In this document: positions 1,725 through 15,758 of the stretch, piece by piece
How the letters are laid out: each line of letters starts with the position of its first letter
Numbering within the stretch: the first letter of the stretch is position 1
Notes under the pieces: model-generated
Told to the model about the DNA's origin: nothing
Database searches by the model: none
The model's input: only the letters and a program-made list of their open reading frames with translations
Program-made: the position numbers and the translations under genes
Source of the DNA: Phycisphaerae bacterium
Lineage (GTDB): Bacteria; Planctomycetota; Phycisphaerae; Sedimentisphaerales; Anaerobacaceae
Direction: 5' to 3'
Length of the DNA stretch: 36,838 nucleotides
Assembly: GCA_029858035.1 (NCBI GenBank)
Contig: JAOUFU010000003.1
Coordinates: 1-36,838, forward strand

Positions 1725-1940
1725 TCAATAAAACAATAGATTTTTTTCCTTGATTTCGGTGACTCCTTCGGTTCTATATTCAAGGACCGCCAATTCAGCT
1801 ATCGCCCGGATGGATTTGAGTAGAAATGTAGTTGTTTTTGATTTTATCTTAGGTTTTGCGGCCATCCTCCTGCCTATAAAAAAGGCGATAAGGCCTGCAA
1901 TTGCTATAAGGCCAATGGAATATAGAATGTCGTAGAACAT
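1725..1940 (-). CDS. Small hypothetical membrane protein (71 aa)
   Basis: ORF with an N-terminal TM helix (YSIGLIAIAGLIAFFIGRR) followed by a basic stretch. No family recognised. Confidence 0.45.
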   Translation of the reverse strand: MFYDILYSIGLIAIAGLIAFFIGRRMAAKPKIKSKTTTFLLKSIRAIAELAVLEYRTEGVTEIKEKNLLFY

Positions 1941-2201
1941 TTTATATGTCCTTTCCGTTTTTTGCGGGTCCGATTGGGACCTGTTGAACAGGCATTATCT
2001 GATTATGTTGTGAATACTATGCCCGATTTATACATTTTCGGACTCGGTTTTCGCCTTAGACGATAGTCGAAATAAGGTGTAGAGTCAAAGCAAAAGTCCG
2101 CAGACTGAAAATTGCGAAATTCGAATGCCGGGCGACAAATTATATTCTCCGGTAAAGTTCTTGCAATTTTGGGGCCGATTATATACATTGTTGTCAGTTT
2201 C

Positions 2202-2275
2202 GGCGGCGTAGCTCAGCTGGTTAGAGCATGGGATTCATAAGCCCAGGGTCGTTGGTTCGAATCCAACCGCCGCTA
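2202..2275 (+). tRNA. tRNA-Met (anticodon CAT)
   Basis: GGCGGCGTAGCTCAGCTGGTTAGAGCATGGGATTCATAAGCCCAGGGTCGTTGGTTCGAATCCAACCGCCGCTA folds as a cloverleaf: 7-bp acceptor, TTCATAA anticodon loop, GTTGG-TTCGAAT-CCAAC T arm. A tRNA-Ile2 (lysidine) identity is not excluded. Confidence 0.93.
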
Positions 2276-2316
2276 ATTTAGTTTTGAATTTTTAGTTTTT
2301 AATTTTGGGTTTTTTT

Positions 2317-2389
2317 GCCCCCATCGTCTAGTGGCCTAGGATATCAGGTTCTCATCCTGGAGACAGGGGTTCGACTCCCCTTGGGGGTA
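2317..2389 (+). tRNA. tRNA-Glu (anticodon CTC)
   Basis: GCCCCCATCGTCTAGTGGCCTAGGATATCAGGTTCTCATCCTGGAGACAGGGGTTCGACTCCCCTTGGGGGTA folds as a cloverleaf with anticodon loop TTCTCAT. Confidence 0.93.
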
Positions 2390-2548
2390 TTTTTTGCCAA
2401 AGGCAAAAAATAGAGCAGTTGAGCATTTGAACAGGTGGAGTATTTGTTTTCCTGCTTGATAAATTCTTTTTGTATCAAAAATCAAAATGCAAATTGCGGT
2501 ATTTTGCTACCTTTAAGAATCAGATCTAATTTCATTTGAGGTTGTGAT

Positions 2549-3919
2549 ATGATATCACTTGTCGCTAATGTTGTTATATTATGCCAGTTGATAGTGTTGG
2601 CGTCGGTTCCGGATCATGTTGTTTTGAAGGGGCGGTTGATGGCGGCGCGGTACGCGGGCAGCAGTGAAGAAGTAGCTATGACGGCGGTCTATTGCTTTGC
2701 GAGTTCGGCAGGCACCGGTAGCCAGGCAATCGGATTTCGTACATGGGAGACACATCCCGTGGGGTGGTATTATCTGCCGGGCGGTGCGGGAAACTATAGC
2801 ATCATCTTTTCTAATCCAGCGGGCTTTATGCGGCCTATTGTTCTGACTAACCAGTTCGTAAAGCCGGGTGACGTCGTGGACCGGAAGCTCTCTCCCGTAT
2901 TTGACTACGGCGATTTCTACGAAGGGGCGTGGGACACGAAGGCGGCCACGGATTACTATCAAACGTTCATAGCGAGGGGGACGAGCATCACACAGGTTGG
3001 CTTTAAGCTGGCGACCGATGGGGTGGACGGGGCCGGGCCGAGGGGGCAGAATATTCTTATATCAATCCACGAAAAAGGCAAGGGGACGCCGGATAAATGG
3101 AAGCAGGTCGGGCCTGCGGCGGTTGTTCTGGACGTGGATTGCGGTGGGCCGAAGAATTATTGGTGGTCGGGGGGCTGGGATTCCGGCCAGATCCCGACGG
3201 AGCCGGGCAAAACATACGCAGTGCATCTGAAGGCGGAGACTAAAGGCGGCAGCTTCCAGGTTTTCTGGAGGGCGGATGAGGATAAGATGTCGGATTGTTA
3301 CCGTATAGGTCAAGACGGAAAGGCCGGCTGGCAGGGACATAAGATGTGTATGGCGGTCGGCTCGGATTGCGATGGTTTGTTGATACCCTATAACAAGCGG
3401 GTACAGAAAAAGTTTGTTGAGTTCGCCGGTTTTGACAAATCGTGGTCACAGACGTATGTGGCGCAGGGCAGGGGGCTGGCGTCGGTTATTTTGTATGCGG
3501 CGACGTCGGGCGTGCAGCCTTCGATTATGAAGCAGCGAGTGAGAGTGAGCGTGCGGCAGGGCGGGCCGGGCGGTGAGATTGTAGGCACGGAAAAGATAGC
3601 GATAGGCAATGGCAATTATACAGGCGACGCATCGTGGGGTGTATTCGGTGTTTCTTTCGCGCCGGGCGAGGTGCCGCTTGAACCGGGCAAGACGTATGCC
3701 GTCGAGTTTGAATCGATTGAAAATTACGATACACTGCACGGATTCGTAAATATCAAGGGCATGGTCAGCGATGATAAGCCGGGCTTCAATCCGTATAGAA
3801 AGGTCCCGCCCGACGACTACAAGCGCGGAACCGCCTACCGAAAATGCACCGACAAACAGCCCTTCGACCTCGATATGCAGATTGTCGAATACCGATCCGA
3901 GCCCCGAAATTCTAGGTAA
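2549..3919 (+). CDS. Secreted hypothetical protein with a tandemly duplicated domain
   Basis: 456-aa ORF with an N-terminal hydrophobic segment. Two related units: TFIARGTSITQVGFKLA...GQIPTEPGKTYAVHLKAE and TYVAQGRGLASVILYAA...GEVPLEPGKTYAVEFES. Confidence 0.75.
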   Translation: MISLVANVVILCQLIVLASVPDHVVLKGRLMAARYAGSSEEVAMTAVYCFASSAGTGSQAIGFRTWETHPVGWYYLPGGAGNYSIIFSNPAGFMRPIVLTNQFVKPGDVVDRKLSPVFDYGDFYEGAWDTKAATDYYQTFIARGTSITQVGFKLATDGVDGAGPRGQNILISIHEKGKGTPDKWKQVGPAAVVLDVDCGGPKNYWWSGGWDSGQIPTEPGKTYAVHLKAETKGGSFQVFWRADEDKMSDCYRIGQDGKAGWQGHKMCMAVGSDCDGLLIPYNKRVQKKFVEFAGFDKSWSQTYVAQGRGLASVILYAATSGVQPSIMKQRVRVSVRQGGPGGEIVGTEKIAIGNGNYTGDASWGVFGVSFAPGEVPLEPGKTYAVEFESIENYDTLHGFVNIKGMVSDDKPGFNPYRKVPPDDYKRGTAYRKCTDKQPFDLDMQIVEYRSEPRNSR

Positions 3920-4037: not shown

Positions 4038-4385
4038 ATGAGAAATGTTCTTGGACTGTCAGCGGTTCTGTTGGTTTGCGTGGCGTTAAGCTCGTGCAGC
4101 GGTAATCGGCCGGAGAAGGCCTTTATGGGTATGTGGAAAGGTACGTATGAGGGAGAGACGATCGAGCTTTCGCTCATGGAGAAGGATATATCTATCGCGA
4201 AGACTGGCGATGAAACATTTGCGGGGACGTGGACCATTGACCCCGAAGGAAACGCAGTGATAACCTTTGAGGGTGAGGACGGGAGAATCATCGCAACGCT
4301 CTTGAACGACGGGAAGATCATAGCCCGAAAAGAGGGCGAGTCGTCGGCGGTAGTGTTCGAAAAGAGCGACTCGAACCGCTTATGA
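4038..4385 (+). CDS. Small lipoprotein
   Basis: MRNVLGLSAVLLVCVALSSCSGNRPEKAFMGMWKGTYEGE: signal peptide with LSSC lipobox; GAAAGGAG upstream of ATG 4038. The longer 3771 start in the ORF track is probably not the real one. Confidence 0.7.
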   Translation: MRNVLGLSAVLLVCVALSSCSGNRPEKAFMGMWKGTYEGETIELSLMEKDISIAKTGDETFAGTWTIDPEGNAVITFEGEDGRIIATLLNDGKIIARKEGESSAVVFEKSDSNRL

Positions 4386-4398
4386 GCCTATGGGCATG

Positions 4399-4484
4399 AT
4401 TGACAACAAACAGGATGAACGGTACATGCAAATGGCCATCGAGCAGGCGCGGATTGCCGAGAAAAACGGTGATGTCCCTGTCTA
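4399..4484 (+). pseudogene. tadA: Truncated 5' fragment of a tRNA adenosine deaminase (tadA-like) gene
   Basis: [29 protein letters not shown] matches the N-terminus of the complete TadA at 5291 ([30 protein letters not shown]). Homology stops at the 3' end of the HEPN gene; the catalytic region is missing. Confidence 0.8.
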
Positions 4485-4823
4485 TTTTTCTGCGAGCAGG
4501 TCTTGTACCTGTTTTTGCAGGTTTGGCAGGTCTTGTTGGATAACGTCCCAAACTACGGTGTTATCAACGATGTCATAGCCATGAATAAGAATGTTTCGAA
4601 ATGAGATAATCCGCTGAGAGCGACTTATTTTCGACACCGTATCCGGGTCGATTCTGGACAACCTGTTAAGAGCCTCGCCTATAATTTCAAATTGTCGCTC
4701 CACGGCAAAGCATAGCATCTTGTTATCTACATAATCATCAAAAGTTGCACCGGCGGTAAAATCAAGGATATGAGCGCCGGCCAGCCGGATGTCCTCCAAA
4801 ATCTTTTTTGATTCAAGCTGCAT
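4482..4823 (-). CDS. hepT: HEPN domain RNase toxin, HepT/DUF86 family
   Basis: [22 protein letters not shown]...[19 protein letters not shown]...[27 protein letters not shown]; contains RX4H motif RNILIH. Overlaps the upstream MNT gene. Confidence 0.87.
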
Positions 4824-5121
4824 AGAGAACTTTCCTGTTTTGATTTATTTTTTGCAGAAAATACGGATTTCTAATCGCCTTTGTCATTACCAAATCCACG
4901 TTTCTGCCGAGCAGATTCTTCAGGGACTCCAGCAGGCCAAAATAAGTATCTGCGTGTCGTCCCTGTTTTAACGGCTTAAACTCCACCAGAAGGTCTATAT
5001 CGCTTGATACTTGAGCAAAGTTTTCACTCAAAGCGGAACCGAAAATTTCGAGCCTGCTAACATTAAACTGTGAGCAGATTAGTTGTATTTCTGAAAGATG
5101 TTTTTCAATAAGTTCAAGCAT
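4813..5121 (-). CDS. mntA: Minimal nucleotidyltransferase (MNT) antitoxin, MntA-like
   Basis: [29 protein letters not shown]11DXD nucleotidyltransferase motif. Immediately upstream of and overlapping the HEPN gene. Confidence 0.85.
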
Positions 5122-5290
5122 AAGGCTGCTATCTTCTTACAAGGAATAATACATACGTTATTCGGCTATCCGCCATTGTCAAGTAAATGTATTATACCAG
5201 AGTATTAGAAAAAGCGGCAATTAATTTTACATCCCGGAGCCTTTAGGTTAATATCCCCTGCAGAAAGGGTTTTCAAGGCAAGGATAATAA

Positions 5291-5767
5291 ATGATAAATA
5301 TAACCAAAGAAGATGAAAACTTTATGCGACTCGCCATTGAGCAGGCGCGGATTGCCGAGGAAAACGGTGATGTTCCCATTGGCGCGGTCATAGTTGGCGA
5401 AAACCGGATAATCGGCAAGGCATATAATCAGAGAGAGCAGTTACAGGACCCGACGGCGCACGCAGAGATAATCGCGCTGACACAGGCGGCGGCAGCACTG
5501 GAGAACTGGCATTTAAACGGCTGTACGATATATGTCACGTTGGAGCCTTGTCCTATGTGTGCCGGCGCATTGGTGCTGGCCAGAATTGATAGATTAGTAT
5601 ACGGCTGTGATGACCCGAAAGCGGGGGCCTGTAAATCGCTTTACAATATTGTCCAGGATGAGCGACTTAACCATCGCCTGGAAGTTACTTCCGGGGTTTT
5701 GGTTGAGCAGTGCAGCAAACTGCTGAGAGATTTCTTCTCGCAGAGACGAGTAAAAAATGCTCAATGA
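5291..5767 (+). CDS. tadA: tRNA adenosine(34) deaminase TadA
   Basis: 158 aa with [10 protein letters not shown] (HAE) and [22 protein letters not shown] (PCxxC) zinc-deaminase motifs. Confidence 0.9.
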
Positions 5768-8028: not shown

Positions 8029-8397
8029 TCAAGACTTCTCCGCAATAGAGTCGGCTAACTCTGCGATGCGAAGTTCGAGCCTTTTTATTTCCCGCTTTAT
8101 GCTGTTTCTGTGTACCGCCTGCCACGAGAAAACCTTTGCTGCAGCATATAGTTGGATGCAACAAACAAAAAAAGCAGCATACATAATCTGGAATTTGGTC
8201 AGGTCGGCCCTGAAGAATTGGATGGCACTGAAAACAGCCAGTGTGGCATAGGTGCCGCACCATATAAAGACAAGAATTGCAGTGGATCGCATTTTTCTAC
8301 TGTAGAAATCCCTTGCCATTGACCATAGTGTGTCTTCTTTCGTGTCATCGTATTCTTCGGGACTGTCTATTATTTTTTTTATCTGTTCGTTGTTCAT
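8029..8397 (-). CDS. Small two-TM membrane protein, paralog A (ECF-sigma-linked, DUF6768-like?)
   Basis: MNNEQIKKIIDSPEEYDDTKEDTLWSMARDFYSRKMRSTAILVFIW... shares a clear common framework with 8442..8765; downstream of the sigma factor on the same strand. Confidence 0.7.
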   Translation of the reverse strand: MNNEQIKKIIDSPEEYDDTKEDTLWSMARDFYSRKMRSTAILVFIWCGTYATLAVFSAIQFFRADLTKFQIMYAAFFVCCIQLYAAAKVFSWQAVHRNSIKREIKRLELRIAELADSIAEKS

Positions 8398-8441: not shown

Positions 8442-8765
8442 TTATTTTTTCAGTTTATTTATTTCCCGTTTGATGCCCTGTCTGTGGATCATCAGCAAGG
8501 CGAAAATCTTCATCAGACAAATGCCATTGAAGCAGCAGATGAAGATGGCGGCGTACATTATCTGGAATTTTGTCTGGTCGGTTTTAAAGAATTTGACGGC
8601 GCTATACGCGGCCGGGACAAAAAAGATGATGGCCCATACCCAGACGAGAATTGCGGTGGAGCGCATCTTTGGGCCGTAGAAGTCCCTTGCTATCGACCAT
8701 ATTGAGTCTTCTTTTGATTCGTTGCAGGTGTCATCGGCGTTTTTTTTGATTTGTTCATCGTTCAT
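8442..8765 (-). CDS. Small two-TM membrane protein, paralog B (ECF-sigma-linked, DUF6768-like?)
   Basis: MNDEQIKKNADDTCNESKEDSIWSIARDFYGPKMRSTAILVWVWA... paralogous to 8029..8397. Confidence 0.7.
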   Translation of the reverse strand: MNDEQIKKNADDTCNESKEDSIWSIARDFYGPKMRSTAILVWVWAIIFFVPAAYSAVKFFKTDQTKFQIMYAAIFICCFNGICLMKIFALLMIHRQGIKREINKLKK

Positions 8766-8781: not shown

Positions 8782-9324
8782 TTATTCGAAATGTTTTTGA
8801 TAAAGCTCTTTGAGCTCTTTTCTTGCCTTTGCCAGCCGGGATTTGACGGTCCCCTTTGGAATTTTCAGGGCGGTGCTTACCTCGGGGACGGTAAGCTGTT
8901 CAAAATAGTACAGGCTGATAACGGCTCTTTTTCTCACGTCTAATTTTTGCAGCAGCTCTTTCAAGCCTGCATCTTTTTTTTCTTTTTGATGATGATTTTT
9001 AATTTCTTCGATGCTTATCTTTTTTATATTTTTATCTTTTTTTATCCAGTCGATTGATTTGTTTGTTGTTATTTTATATGCCCAGGCCTTGAAATTTGCA
9101 GGGTCGTTCAATTTTCTCAATCCTTTTATGATGCCGAGCCAGGTTTCCTGAGTAACGTCCCAGGCTGCCTGTTCGTCGGCGGTCAATCGAAGAGCGTACT
9201 TCCAGAGGCGTTTCTGCCAGCGGCTTACAAGCATTTCCATGGCCCTGGCTCTGCCGTCCTGGGCATCCATCACGAGTATTTCATCAACAAGTTGGTCAAC
9301 CGACCTGTCCATTCTATCTATCAT
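8782..9324 (-). CDS. ECF-type RNA polymerase sigma-70 family factor
   Basis: Region 2 (WKYALRLTADEQAAWDVTQETWLGIIKGLRKLNDPANFKAWAYKITTNKSIDWIKK) and region 4 (LDVRKRAVISLYYFEQLTVPEVSTALKIPKGTVKSRLAKARKELKELY). Confidence 0.92.
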   Translation of the reverse strand: MIDRMDRSVDQLVDEILVMDAQDGRARAMEMLVSRWQKRLWKYALRLTADEQAAWDVTQETWLGIIKGLRKLNDPANFKAWAYKITTNKSIDWIKKDKNIKKISIEEIKNHHQKEKKDAGLKELLQKLDVRKRAVISLYYFEQLTVPEVSTALKIPKGTVKSRLAKARKELKELYQKHFE

Positions 9325-12216: not shown

Positions 12217-13194
12217 ATGCCCGCTCTAAATCAAGGCGATAGAGACTATAAAGATAATTCATCAGGATGTGAACAATCCTCTCGTCGTGAATTTCTAAAA
12301 AAGCTGGGAGCTTTGCCTGTTGCTGCGATGGCTGCGGAGCAGGTCGGCAGGGTGTCCTCCGCATGGGCCGGCGAGGCCAAGCTGCCTCGTATAAAATTCG
12401 GGAAGGTGTCGCTTTCCCGACTGGTCTGTGGGGCCAATCCCTTCAATGCCGGTTCACACCTGTCTGTTTTTGTCAACCACCAGATGCGGCAATACTACAC
12501 GCCGGAACAAATCCTTAAGACCCTGCGCAGCTGCCAGGAGGTGGGGATTAATTGCTGGCAGTCCGGCAGTGATAAATATAAAATGTACCGTCGCTTTATC
12601 GACGATGGGGGGAAGATACACTATCTATCCATCAACTCGGATCTGGCAGAGATTGAACCGATAGCAAAAGCCGGCGGATTGGGTATCGCGCATCATGGGG
12701 AAACAACCGACAATTTGTTCAAAGCGGGCAAGCTTGATAAGATTCATGATTTCCTCAAGCGTGTTCGCGATGCGGGTCTTATGGTGGGGGTCTCCACTCA
12801 CATGCCGGCTGTGATAGAGGCCATCGAGGACAAAGGCTGGGACGTGGATTACTATATGGCCTGCGTTTACGAACGCCATCGAAGCGAAGCCGAATTGAAG
12901 AAGCTGTTGGGCCGGGTCCCAATCCCTGTGCCCGAAGTTTATTTACAGGAGGACCCGCCGCGGATGTTCAAGGTGATACGGCAGACAAAGAGGCCGTGTC
13001 TGGCTTTTAAGATTCTGGCGGCGGGGCGACTTTCCGAACGCAAGGCGTGGGTGGAAAAAGCCTTCCGCGAGACGTTCCAATCCATAAAGGAAAACGATGC
13101 GGTTATTGTGGGTATTTACGACCAATATAGCGACCAGCCGGCCGAAGACGCAGAATACACCCGGCGTTTCAGCTCCTTGAGCGGCAAGGCTTGA
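12217..13194 (+). CDS. Aldo/keto reductase-like TIM-barrel protein, Tat-exported
   Basis: SSRREFLKKLGALPVAAMAAEQ leader; KFGKVSLSRLVCGANPFNAGSH...MRQYYTPEQILKTLRSCQEVGINCWQSG...GLMVGVSTHMPAVIEAIEDKGWDVDYYMACVY. Confidence 0.65.
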   Translation: MPALNQGDRDYKDNSSGCEQSSRREFLKKLGALPVAAMAAEQVGRVSSAWAGEAKLPRIKFGKVSLSRLVCGANPFNAGSHLSVFVNHQMRQYYTPEQILKTLRSCQEVGINCWQSGSDKYKMYRRFIDDGGKIHYLSINSDLAEIEPIAKAGGLGIAHHGETTDNLFKAGKLDKIHDFLKRVRDAGLMVGVSTHMPAVIEAIEDKGWDVDYYMACVYERHRSEAELKKLLGRVPIPVPEVYLQEDPPRMFKVIRQTKRPCLAFKILAAGRLSERKAWVEKAFRETFQSIKENDAVIVGIYDQYSDQPAEDAEYTRRFSSLSGKA

Positions 13195-13433
13195 GTGGCA
13201 TATCCTTTTCACTAAGCCTGTCCCTTTGTTGTTTTCAGCCCTTCCGTGTTTGATTGCTCTTTTTGTTCAGATAAGTATTTGACACGGGTACACTTAAGAC
13301 ACTTGACTTTTTAACGCGAATTTGGCATCATAAGGATAGAAAAAGGAGGAATGTTGCCATATTTATGTCAAACAGGAAAACTCGACACAAGAGTTCGGAT
13401 ACTCCATTTTATAATTGTCATGGAAAATGAGGG

Positions 13434-15758
13434 ATGAATAAAGGTATCTCTGGTCTTGTTAGCATGGTCTTGCCGGTGCTGGTATTGGCGCCAAGTCTGC
13501 CCGGTTTAGCGGAGGCGGTTCGGTTCGATTTGATTAAGGATGGTCGTATCGATTGGTCCGACCTTGCCGGTTTTGCTGAGAAATGGCTGGACACCGGTTG
13601 TTTGGCGGACTATTTCTGCGGCGGTGCAGATTTCGACTACAGCGACAGGGTCGATTTTACTGATTTTAATTTATTAGCGGTAGAGTGGGGGAGTGTTGAG
13701 CCTTACGTTACTAATTTGCTTGCCGGCCACGAGCCGTATGAAACGCATGTCGGGATTTTGGGGCCACATCCCACCGATCCGAGTGTCACTATAGGGGCCC
13801 GGCTATTGGGTGGTACGAACCATCCGACATTCGGAATTGTGCCCACTGCAACCGAGGGCAGGTATGTACTCGGGCTGACCTGGGACAACGAAACGGACCG
13901 CAAGGTCGAGTATGGGTACAACTTTACCGGCGGATTTACCTTCGATTTGGCCGGCGTGGATGAAATTGTCTTCGATGTCTTTGTGCCGACCGGAGGCCTT
14001 CTGTTTCCTGCAGGGCTCGTCGGCGTGTGGGATGCGACGTTCGGCTGGAATAAATCCGCTAATGTCCCCACCTCTTTTGATAAGTGGCATACCGTAGTCG
14101 TTGATGTTGTCGACCGAAACAACGTGGGTCTTGGCGGCATCGGCGCTCTGGTGTTCGAGGACATGGGCGGGCCAGGGGACATAGCGGGGACCTTGTTCGT
14201 TGATAATCTGAGGCTGCGCCGGATCAATCCCGATTATTACAATCTCACAGCCACCGGGCACGACAGCAGAATTGATTTGCGATGGAGGCCTGTAAAGGCA
14301 CCGAGTCTGGAGGGTTATAATATATATCGCGCTGATTCCTCTGTGGGACCATTTACGAAGCTGAATAGTTCGGTACACACGGTATCTGTCTATAGTGACT
14401 TTCTCGGTGTGAACGGCAGGACGGTCTATTATTATATAACGTCGGTGCTCGATGGCGGAGAGACTGCACAATCAGGCATTGTCAGCGCTACTTCTTATGC
14501 GATGACCGATGAGCAGCTTTTGACCTCTGTGCAGGAAGCTGTCTTTCGGTACTTCTGGGATTTTGGTCATCCTGTGAGTGGATTGGCAAGGGAAAGGTTT
14601 TACGTGGGGGACCGCCGGACCGTCACCACCGGCGGCTCAGGTTTCGGATTGATGGCGATTGTCGTCGGGGTCGATCGCGGGTTCGTCAGCCGGATCGAAG
14701 CGGCCGAGCGAATCCTGAAGATTTTGACCTTTCTTGACGAAAAGGCCGCTCGTTATCATGGTGCCTGGTCGCATTGGTTTGACGGTACGACCGGTGAGCC
14801 TATAGCCTTCGATTACGATGAGTTTGGCAATCCGATTATGAGCGGCGACCTGGTTGAGACGGCGTTTATGATTCAGGGGATGCTCGCGGTACGGCAGTAC
14901 TTCGATTCTGATGATACTGTCGAGACCTCAGTCCGGAGCATGGTGACTAAGTTGTGGCAGGATGTGGAGTGGGACTGGTATCGCCGAGCCGGGGACACGG
15001 ACGGCAATTCGCTGTGGTGGTTGTGGTCGCCGACCCACAACTGGCAGAACAGCTTCAGGATTACCGGTTATAATGAATGTATGGTCGCATATCTGCTGGC
15101 GATTGCTTCGCCGGCGCACCCGATACCGCCATCCTGTTATTACGACGGCTGGGCGCGGGAATCCTGGTATGCCAACGGCGATACTTTCTATGGTTATTAT
15201 CAGTGGGTGGGGCCTGATTACGGCGGGCCTTTGTTCTGGACGCATTATTCGTTTTTGGGATTTGACCCGCGCAACAAAAGCGATAATTACTGCAACTACT
15301 TCAATAATAGTCGCAACATTTCCCTAATCAATCGTGCACACTGCATCAATAATCCCAATAACTTTGCCGGCTATAGCGCTTCGGTATGGGGCCTGACCGC
15401 CAGTTGTAATCCCTGGGGTTATCTTGCCCATTCGCCTACCAACGACAACGGCACCATTACCCCGACCGCGGCTCTTAGTGCCATGCCTTTCACGCCGGCA
15501 GAATCCATCGCCACCCTGAAGCATTTTTATCACGTTTACGGTGACAGGCTGTGGGGGCCGTTTGGTTTCTACGATGCGTTTAATTTACAGGAAAACTGGT
15601 TCTCGGATGCCTATTTGGCCATCGACCAGGGACCTATTGTGGTGATGATTGAAAACTACCGCACACAATTGTGCTGGGACCTTTTTATGGCAAATCCCGA
15701 AATTATGCCGATGCTGGCAGCTATCGGCTGGGGTATAGGCCCGCCACCTCCACCTTAA
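13434..15758 (+). CDS. Secreted multidomain glucoamylase-like (GH144-like) protein with N-terminal dockerin-like repeats and a fibronectin III-like module
   Basis: DLIKDGRIDWSDLAGFAEKWLDTG / ADFDYSDRVDFTDFNLLAVEWG (dockerin-type repeats); fn3-like (GHDSRIDLRWRPVKAPSLEGYNIYRADSSVGPFTKLN); catalytic-like RYFWDFGHPVSGLARER...GSGFGLMAIVVGVDRGF...ITGYNECMVAYLLAIASP. Confidence 0.8.
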   Translation: MNKGISGLVSMVLPVLVLAPSLPGLAEAVRFDLIKDGRIDWSDLAGFAEKWLDTGCLADYFCGGADFDYSDRVDFTDFNLLAVEWGSVEPYVTNLLAGHEPYETHVGILGPHPTDPSVTIGARLLGGTNHPTFGIVPTATEGRYVLGLTWDNETDRKVEYGYNFTGGFTFDLAGVDEIVFDVFVPTGGLLFPAGLVGVWDATFGWNKSANVPTSFDKWHTVVVDVVDRNNVGLGGIGALVFEDMGGPGDIAGTLFVDNLRLRRINPDYYNLTATGHDSRIDLRWRPVKAPSLEGYNIYRADSSVGPFTKLNSSVHTVSVYSDFLGVNGRTVYYYITSVLDGGETAQSGIVSATSYAMTDEQLLTSVQEAVFRYFWDFGHPVSGLARERFYVGDRRTVTTGGSGFGLMAIVVGVDRGFVSRIEAAERILKILTFLDEKAARYHGAWSHWFDGTTGEPIAFDYDEFGNPIMSGDLVETAFMIQGMLAVRQYFDSDDTVETSVRSMVTKLWQDVEWDWYRRAGDTDGNSLWWLWSPTHNWQNSFRITGYNECMVAYLLAIASPAHPIPPSCYYDGWARESWYANGDTFYGYYQWVGPDYGGPLFWTHYSFLGFDPRNKSDNYCNYFNNSRNISLINRAHCINNPNNFAGYSASVWGLTASCNPWGYLAHSPTNDNGTITPTAALSAMPFTPAESIATLKHFYHVYGDRLWGPFGFYDAFNLQENWFSDAYLAIDQGPIVVMIENYRTQLCWDLFMANPEIMPMLAAIGWGIGPPPPP

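Follow-up and report, generated by a model that had tools for sequence, protein, structure and literature searches.

In the window, the stretch of 36,838 nucleotides analysed here, a compact HEPN/MNT cassette, equipped with a tadA promoter and 5' coding sequence of its own, probably entered a native tadA gene at codon 30 by a single exchange, with the toxin-antitoxin (TA) pair as its cargo. As judged from the alignment of stumps and full-length genes, this insertion point has been used at least three times within this Phycisphaerae family, by unrelated cargo. The arrangement illustrates how an essential gene can accommodate a TA pair while the cell survives, namely through the supply of a new gene start, and that one tadA codon is used repeatedly by different cargo. 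Throughout, G000 denotes the genome of the window itself, and coordinates given without a genome label are positions in the window.

Organisation of the tadA locus

The window carries, in this order, a tadA 5' end (4390-4478), a gap of 3 nt, the 3' end of a hepT/mntA pair and a complete tadA gene at 5291-5767 (Table 1). A preliminary description had recognised the stump, the TA pair and the complete gene, and its start for the stump, 4399, lies close to the ATG identified here at 4390. The full gene was assigned to TadA by the NCBIfam equivalog profile (182 bits, cut-off 150). Alignment of the stump with the full gene, which the preliminary description had proposed, extended over 72 nt (4407-4478 against 5305-5376) with 82% identity; the local alignment score was 79, and the best score among 200 shuffles was 23. 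The near-identical core of about 44 nt reported earlier was recovered at codons 16-30 with 3 mismatches. The two 5' ends do differ ahead of it, as had been described, the foreign codons 1-14 of the full gene being 0.51 identical with the stump, and the hepT stop codon (4482-4484) was indeed located next to the end of the tadA similarity, 3 nt from position 4478.

Only two TadA N-termini were found in the G000 assembly, those of the stump and of the full gene; a further weak TadA match in this assembly is a distant deaminase with 35% identity. A Pfam scan of the small lipoprotein-like gene upstream of the stump gave no match. Judging by position, divergent promoters would be expected in the region that separates mntA from the new tadA start. 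Elsewhere in the window, a small membrane-protein-like gene is present as two diverged copies in tandem (8029-8397 and 8442-8765), which adjoin a sigma-factor-like gene (8782-9324).

Table 1 Features of the tadA locus in the window
Feature	Position	Strand	Basis or remark
Small lipoprotein-like gene	4038..4385	+	Reading frame; upstream of native tadA start
tadA stump, native 5' end, codons 1-30 (apparent relic)	4390..4478	+	TadA profile score 78
Left 44-nt core repeat	4435..4478	+	41/44 identical to 5333-5376
Left junction	4479..4481	.	End of tadA similarity and start of cassette; codon-30 end also in G014, G018 and G202
hepT (HEPN RNase toxin), 113 aa	4482..4823	-	PF01934; RX4HXY motif RNILIHGY
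mntA (nucleotidyltransferase antitoxin), 102 aa	4813..5121	-	GSX11DXD; 11 nt overlap with hepT
Cassette-borne intergenic region, mntA to new tadA start	5122..5290	+	Outside the native tadA locus of G004 and G343
Foreign tadA codons 1-14	5291..5332	+	Nucleotide identity profile
Right 44-nt core repeat	5333..5376	+	0.93 identical with G004
Native tadA remainder	5377..5767	+	Deaminase active-site motifs HAE and PCPMC; closest to G004

Empty sites in relatives and a chimeric tadA

The same-genus genome G004 has a single intact tadA gene, with the start MSMINNKQDERYMQMAIDQARIAEKNGDVPIG. The stump is 0.89 identical in nucleotides to this start before the core and 0.91-0.93 identical within it. In G343, from another genus of the family, tadA is also intact with a stump-like start (identity with the stump 0.78 ahead of the core and 0.82 within it) and there is no TA module. 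The preliminary description had called for a search of relatives for the lipoprotein gene followed by tadA without the TA module; G343 has this arrangement, with a copy of the lipoprotein gene, 87% identical, directly upstream of tadA. No copy of this lipoprotein gene was found upstream of tadA in G004. The tadA genes of G004 and G343 are read here as the pre-insertion state, that is, as empty sites. The earlier suggestion that a second tadA copy had been broken received no support, since both genomes have a single intact tadA with a stump-like start.

Foreign codons 1-14 of the full gene are 0.56 identical with G004 and 0.76 identical with each of G007, G013 and G418. Downstream of the core, identity with G004 was 0.90 over the first 60 nt and 0.79 further on, the closest among the genomes compared; all other genomes gave values of 0.63-0.83. 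Because intact genes with a stump-like start are present in G004 and G343, the cassette appears to have entered the native tadA, importing a foreign promoter and the first codons. The earlier reading, that a cassette entered tadA and a replacement tadA came along with it, is thus retained for the entry and for the new start; the imported part, however, comprises only the promoter and the first codons, and the remainder looks native. The identities, which are taken over short stretches, indicate that the native 5' end remains as a relic stump and that the working TadA is a foreign/native chimera read from the foreign start.

Insertions at the same codon in related genomes

A profile of the 23-residue TadA N-terminus was run against 397 class genomes and 89 family genomes. 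A match was obtained in 71 family genomes, with a stump in 5 of the 71. Among the matches listed from the class sample, no stumps were seen outside the family, and 80 TadA loci from wider taxa had no upstream repeat of the tadA start. A stump end at codon 30 is common to four genomes in the alignment, G000, G014, G018 and G202. In G014, where the stump ends in GGCGATGTGCC, genes for a BrnT toxin and a CopG/BrnA-type antitoxin come next and then full tadA, and in G202 and G018, which belong to one genus, the codon-30 end is followed by a gene for a 451-residue ferric-reductase-like protein (the G018 insert is split over two contigs and so only partly seen). In the G424 genome a decayed tadA start extends past codon 30 and is followed by tdh-like and kbl-like genes and then by tadA. 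The two core copies are identical at 55/56 positions in G014 and at about 43/45 in G018 (by eye on the alignment); those of G202 are about 76% identical, also by eye, with no long identical run. In G000, G018 and G202, a distance of 3-18 nt separates the end of the cargo gene from the junction. As a separate observation, a decayed second tadA 3' end was found in G027 (L039, contig C150; 1022-1180 against 4785-4984), about 3.6 kb downstream of the full gene.

Divergence at 4-fold sites between G018 and G202 was 46% (682/1471) in ten reference genes, 36% (17/47) in the tadA remainder and 17% (8/46) in the cassette gene, for which the comparison covers 118 codons at a contig end, its weak point. 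The cassette value differed from that of the reference genes with p=7e-5 and from that of the tadA remainder alone with p=0.06. The cassettes of the two genomes are 92.6-94.7% identical, their promoter regions 95% and their new N-termini 24/24; the stumps are 77% and the tadA remainders 81% identical, and differences between the stumps continue up to the last bases before the junction. Since the cassette is far more similar than the host genes, it is taken to be younger than the split between G018 and G202 and to have moved. These values indicate that one cassette has spread between species and occupies the same codon in both.

The hepT/mntA pair

HepT matched the Pfam family PF01934 (HepT-like) with 73.4 bits (cut-off 23.5), and MntA matched PF18765 (Polbeta) with 40.2 bits (cut-off 26.9) and PF01909 (NTP_transf_2) with 36 bits (cut-off 21). 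A PF01934 toxin therefore adjoins a PF01909-type nucleotidyltransferase antitoxin, the combination expected of a type VII pair. The motifs RX4HXY in the toxin and GSX10DXD in the antitoxin are signatures of HEPN/MNT TA systems, in which the toxins are RNases that become adenylylated (PMC7641770). The first of these is present in the HepT translation; in MntA, 11 residues separate GS and DXD, compared with 10 in the signature. The window pair resembles the HEPN/MNT type VII systems as a gene pair, in the overlapping order of mntA then hepT, in its Pfam families and in the toxin motif, and differs from them in this spacing and in missing the narrow NCBIfam equivalog cut-off of 60 (36.7 bits for HepT and 40.1 bits for MntA). 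The two proteins are members of the broader families, not close HepT/MntA equivalogs, and are likely to form a working TA pair.

The nearest relative of the hepT/mntA pair, with 66% identity, was found in G327, directly upstream of tadA and without a stump. In G021, the sister of G327, an oxidoreductase gene takes the place of hepT/mntA upstream of tadA. Other hepT homologues adjoin murD/pyrF-like, kdsA-like and sppA/proS-like genes (named by eye), and the close homologues are mostly located at unrelated genes. The hepT loci at murD/pyrF had no flanking gene-end repeats. Another contig of G000 (L001, G000:C67) carries at 1018-2579 a tandem of two HEPN/nucleotidyltransferase pairs, each preceded by a copy of a 42-nt repeat (83% identity).

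Similar architecture at nrnA and other loci

BrnT homologues in G003, G008, G186 and G238 are located between a short copy of the nrnA start and full nrnA. The nrnA product is an NrnA-like DHH phosphoesterase with DHH and DHHA1 domains; the NCBIfam NrnA profile was its best match, below the cut-off. The nrnA stumps end at varying points among the genomes, from about codon 8 to 100, and a single ancient insertion may be the source of the BrnTA-nrnA neighbourhood. Full nrnA of G238 is preceded by two nrnA starts (L209, G238:C96:28000-34000, about 1892-3818 on the minus strand): a gene pair without Pfam hits and then a BrnT/BrnA cassette each follow an nrnA stump, and the upstream gene has its 3' end copied just before full nrnA. 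This locus is apparently a two-cassette array.

A scan for gene-end repeats in 1.24 Mb of family DNA yielded one further clear locus beside the window tadA. At this locus (L221, G202:C3:57001-77000, 12355-15203, minus strand), the 3' end of a short-chain dehydrogenase gene is repeated twice downstream, around PEP-CTERM-type genes, and one of the repeats joins the first and last codons of the dehydrogenase gene. From these loci the repeat architecture is rare, yet not confined to tadA.

A junction motif common to tadA and nrnA, GGYGATG, was considered and is not claimed, because in G004 the nrnA stump seems to extend beyond the motif, with point differences, and at the remaining nrnA loci the ends are scattered. 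Matches to the nrnA N-terminus in G000 (C141), G017 (C184:14708) and G430, all located at contig ends, were not counted as clean stumps, and nrnA of G270 was discarded as a cassette site, the next frame resembling an IS3-type transposase by eye. Contig G000:C141 stops at nrnA codon 32 (end 16036), and no other nrnA start was found in G000; this contig end is possibly an insertion or a strain-variable site. What appears to be one and the same IS200-like (Y1) transposase-like gene is located just upstream of the nrnA start or stump in G186 (L160, 1897-2460, minus strand), G003 (L159, 844-1344) and G000 (L203, G000:C141, about 2500-2850). It gave a weak Pfam match just below the cut-off in G186 and was recognised by eye in G003 and G000.

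The preliminary description had also raised a link between the TA pair and tRNA modification, which the present comparisons do not support. If the TA pair and tadA were functionally linked, for example by HepT acting on tRNA-Arg(ACG) or sensing the loss of TadA, with the linkage under selection, the position of the closest hepT homologue in the family, also beside tadA in G327, would be explained. Such a link is nevertheless hardly credible, as BrnTA or a reductase is the cargo at the same codon in other genomes, a variety that argues against it, and as other hepT homologues have the unrelated neighbours named above and similar insertions occur at nrnA. Neighbourhoods of TA and housekeeping genes should not, as a warning, be read as functional links.

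Mechanism of insertion

A circular cassette containing the cargo and a tadA 5' segment would exchange once with the conserved codons 16-30 of the host tadA, and this single exchange would leave the shared segment on both sides, giving stump, cargo and full gene. The most likely route would be RecA-type single-crossover insertion-duplication, the main alternative being a recombinase acting in trans. A precedent is known from E. coli, where most integrations of DNA with a single homologous end duplicated part of the anchor gene, an outcome explained by a single crossover of re-circularised molecules (PMC3240628). The anchor gene is likewise partly duplicated around foreign DNA at the window locus, and the near-identical cores of G000, G014 and G018 fit a single crossover. 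Left unexplained by it are the constant end point at tadA and the G202 locus, where core identity is poor for RecA. The scattered end points that accompany insertion-duplication are seen at nrnA but not at tadA, and three events ending at one codon would be unexpected from random ends. No circular form of the cassette was observed, and metagenome-type assemblies limit what can be excluded.

The constant end point and the G202 locus are what a site-specific recombinase supplied in trans would account for, if it used tadA codons 27-30 (GGYGATGT) as its attachment site and the inserts were integrase-less elements like cis-mobilizable ones. The left junction is identical in three independent events, the inserts are compact, with the cargo ending close to the junction, the host difference between G018 and G202 reaches the last bases before it, and G202 would require merely a few shared bases. 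This possibility is nonetheless considered doubtful: no recombinase was found in any insert, the cassette ends share no common sequence, and in three of the four genomes the core copies are 93-98% identical, beyond what a short crossover site would need. Moreover, the G424 stump passes codon 30, G327 has hepT/mntA at tadA without a stump, and the nrnA end points are variable. The single crossover is placed somewhat ahead because it has a precedent and no enzyme is in sight. An older tandem, in which a native tadA was followed by an acquired hepT-mntA-tadA and the first copy later lost its 3' part by deletion, would be in keeping with the longer decayed tadA start upstream of tdh-kbl-tadA in G424 and with hepT-mntA-tadA without a stump in G327. 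It is quite improbable, being weakened by the chimeric profile, in which the remainder of the G000 tadA looks native and not foreign, and three deletions would each have needed to stop at codon 30.

Once a cassette had been inserted by single exchange, TA addiction would work against a reversal of this exchange and so against restoration of the native tadA. The direct repeats allow such a reversal, so addiction could hold cassettes in place; this offers a testable reason for the common TA cargo at tadA and nrnA. A wider proposal can be put forward only tentatively, and is rather unlikely in this full form: a so far undescribed planctomycete gene-cassette system, in which mostly-TA cassettes would use the 5' end of a housekeeping gene as attachment segment, be inserted at a fixed codon by an enzyme in trans and re-supply the gene start, with arrays possible as at nrnA in G238. 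Viral contigs were screened for a phage carrier with a short TadA profile and a degenerate core pattern, which gave no confirmed locus, and TadA matches on plasmids were all below 60% identity.

Comparison with known systems

Integron cassettes, including the TA cassettes of chromosomal integrons, are compact single-operon units, often encode TA pairs and are added at a fixed point. The tadA cassettes are similarly compact, often TA and added at a fixed point; unlike integron cassettes, they leave no room for attC at the hepT end, where 3 nt separate the stop codon from the junction. An integron integrase is encoded in G000 (G000:C39:2325-3257; TIGR02249, 379 bits, above cut-off), and eight other family genomes also exceed the cut-off, but a search with the same profile detected none in G014, G018 and G202. 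An integron origin of the tadA cassettes is unlikely because there is no space for attC and no integrase in these three genomes.

Islands and prophages are known in the 5' end of dusA, a tRNA-modification gene (PMC4482086). Like the dusA islands, the tadA cassettes occupy a fixed site within the 5' portion of a conserved gene for tRNA modification, here the same codon in four genomes. The dusA islands carry their own integrase, whereas the window insert is about 0.8 kb in length with two genes only, and no integrase was found in any of the inserts, which consist only of hepT/mntA, BrnT/BrnA or one reductase gene (the G018 insert being incomplete). Foreign DNA beside one homologous segment and partial duplication of the anchor are shared with single-crossover insertion-duplication and homology-facilitated illegitimate recombination (PMC3240628); the ends are scattered in those events, whereas the tadA end is constant in three independent events and G202 has little identity.

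In Vibrio cholerae, T6SS effector modules enter successively through a conserved anchor and their remnants build arrays (PMC5361080). The two-stump nrnA locus of G238 is similar in that module remnants accumulate at an anchor. Unlike in the T6SS modules, the anchor is here the start of a housekeeping gene, the cargo is mostly TA, and the 5' end of an essential gene is displaced. A search of open-access literature for integration at tadA yielded only a prophage located between purA and tadA (PMC10383233), and in the papers searched integrase-less, mainly TA cassettes that repeatedly replace the tadA start at one codon were not found. Each component is already known by itself: TA pairs, tRNA-modification genes with islands in their 5' ends, and module arrays built at a conserved anchor.
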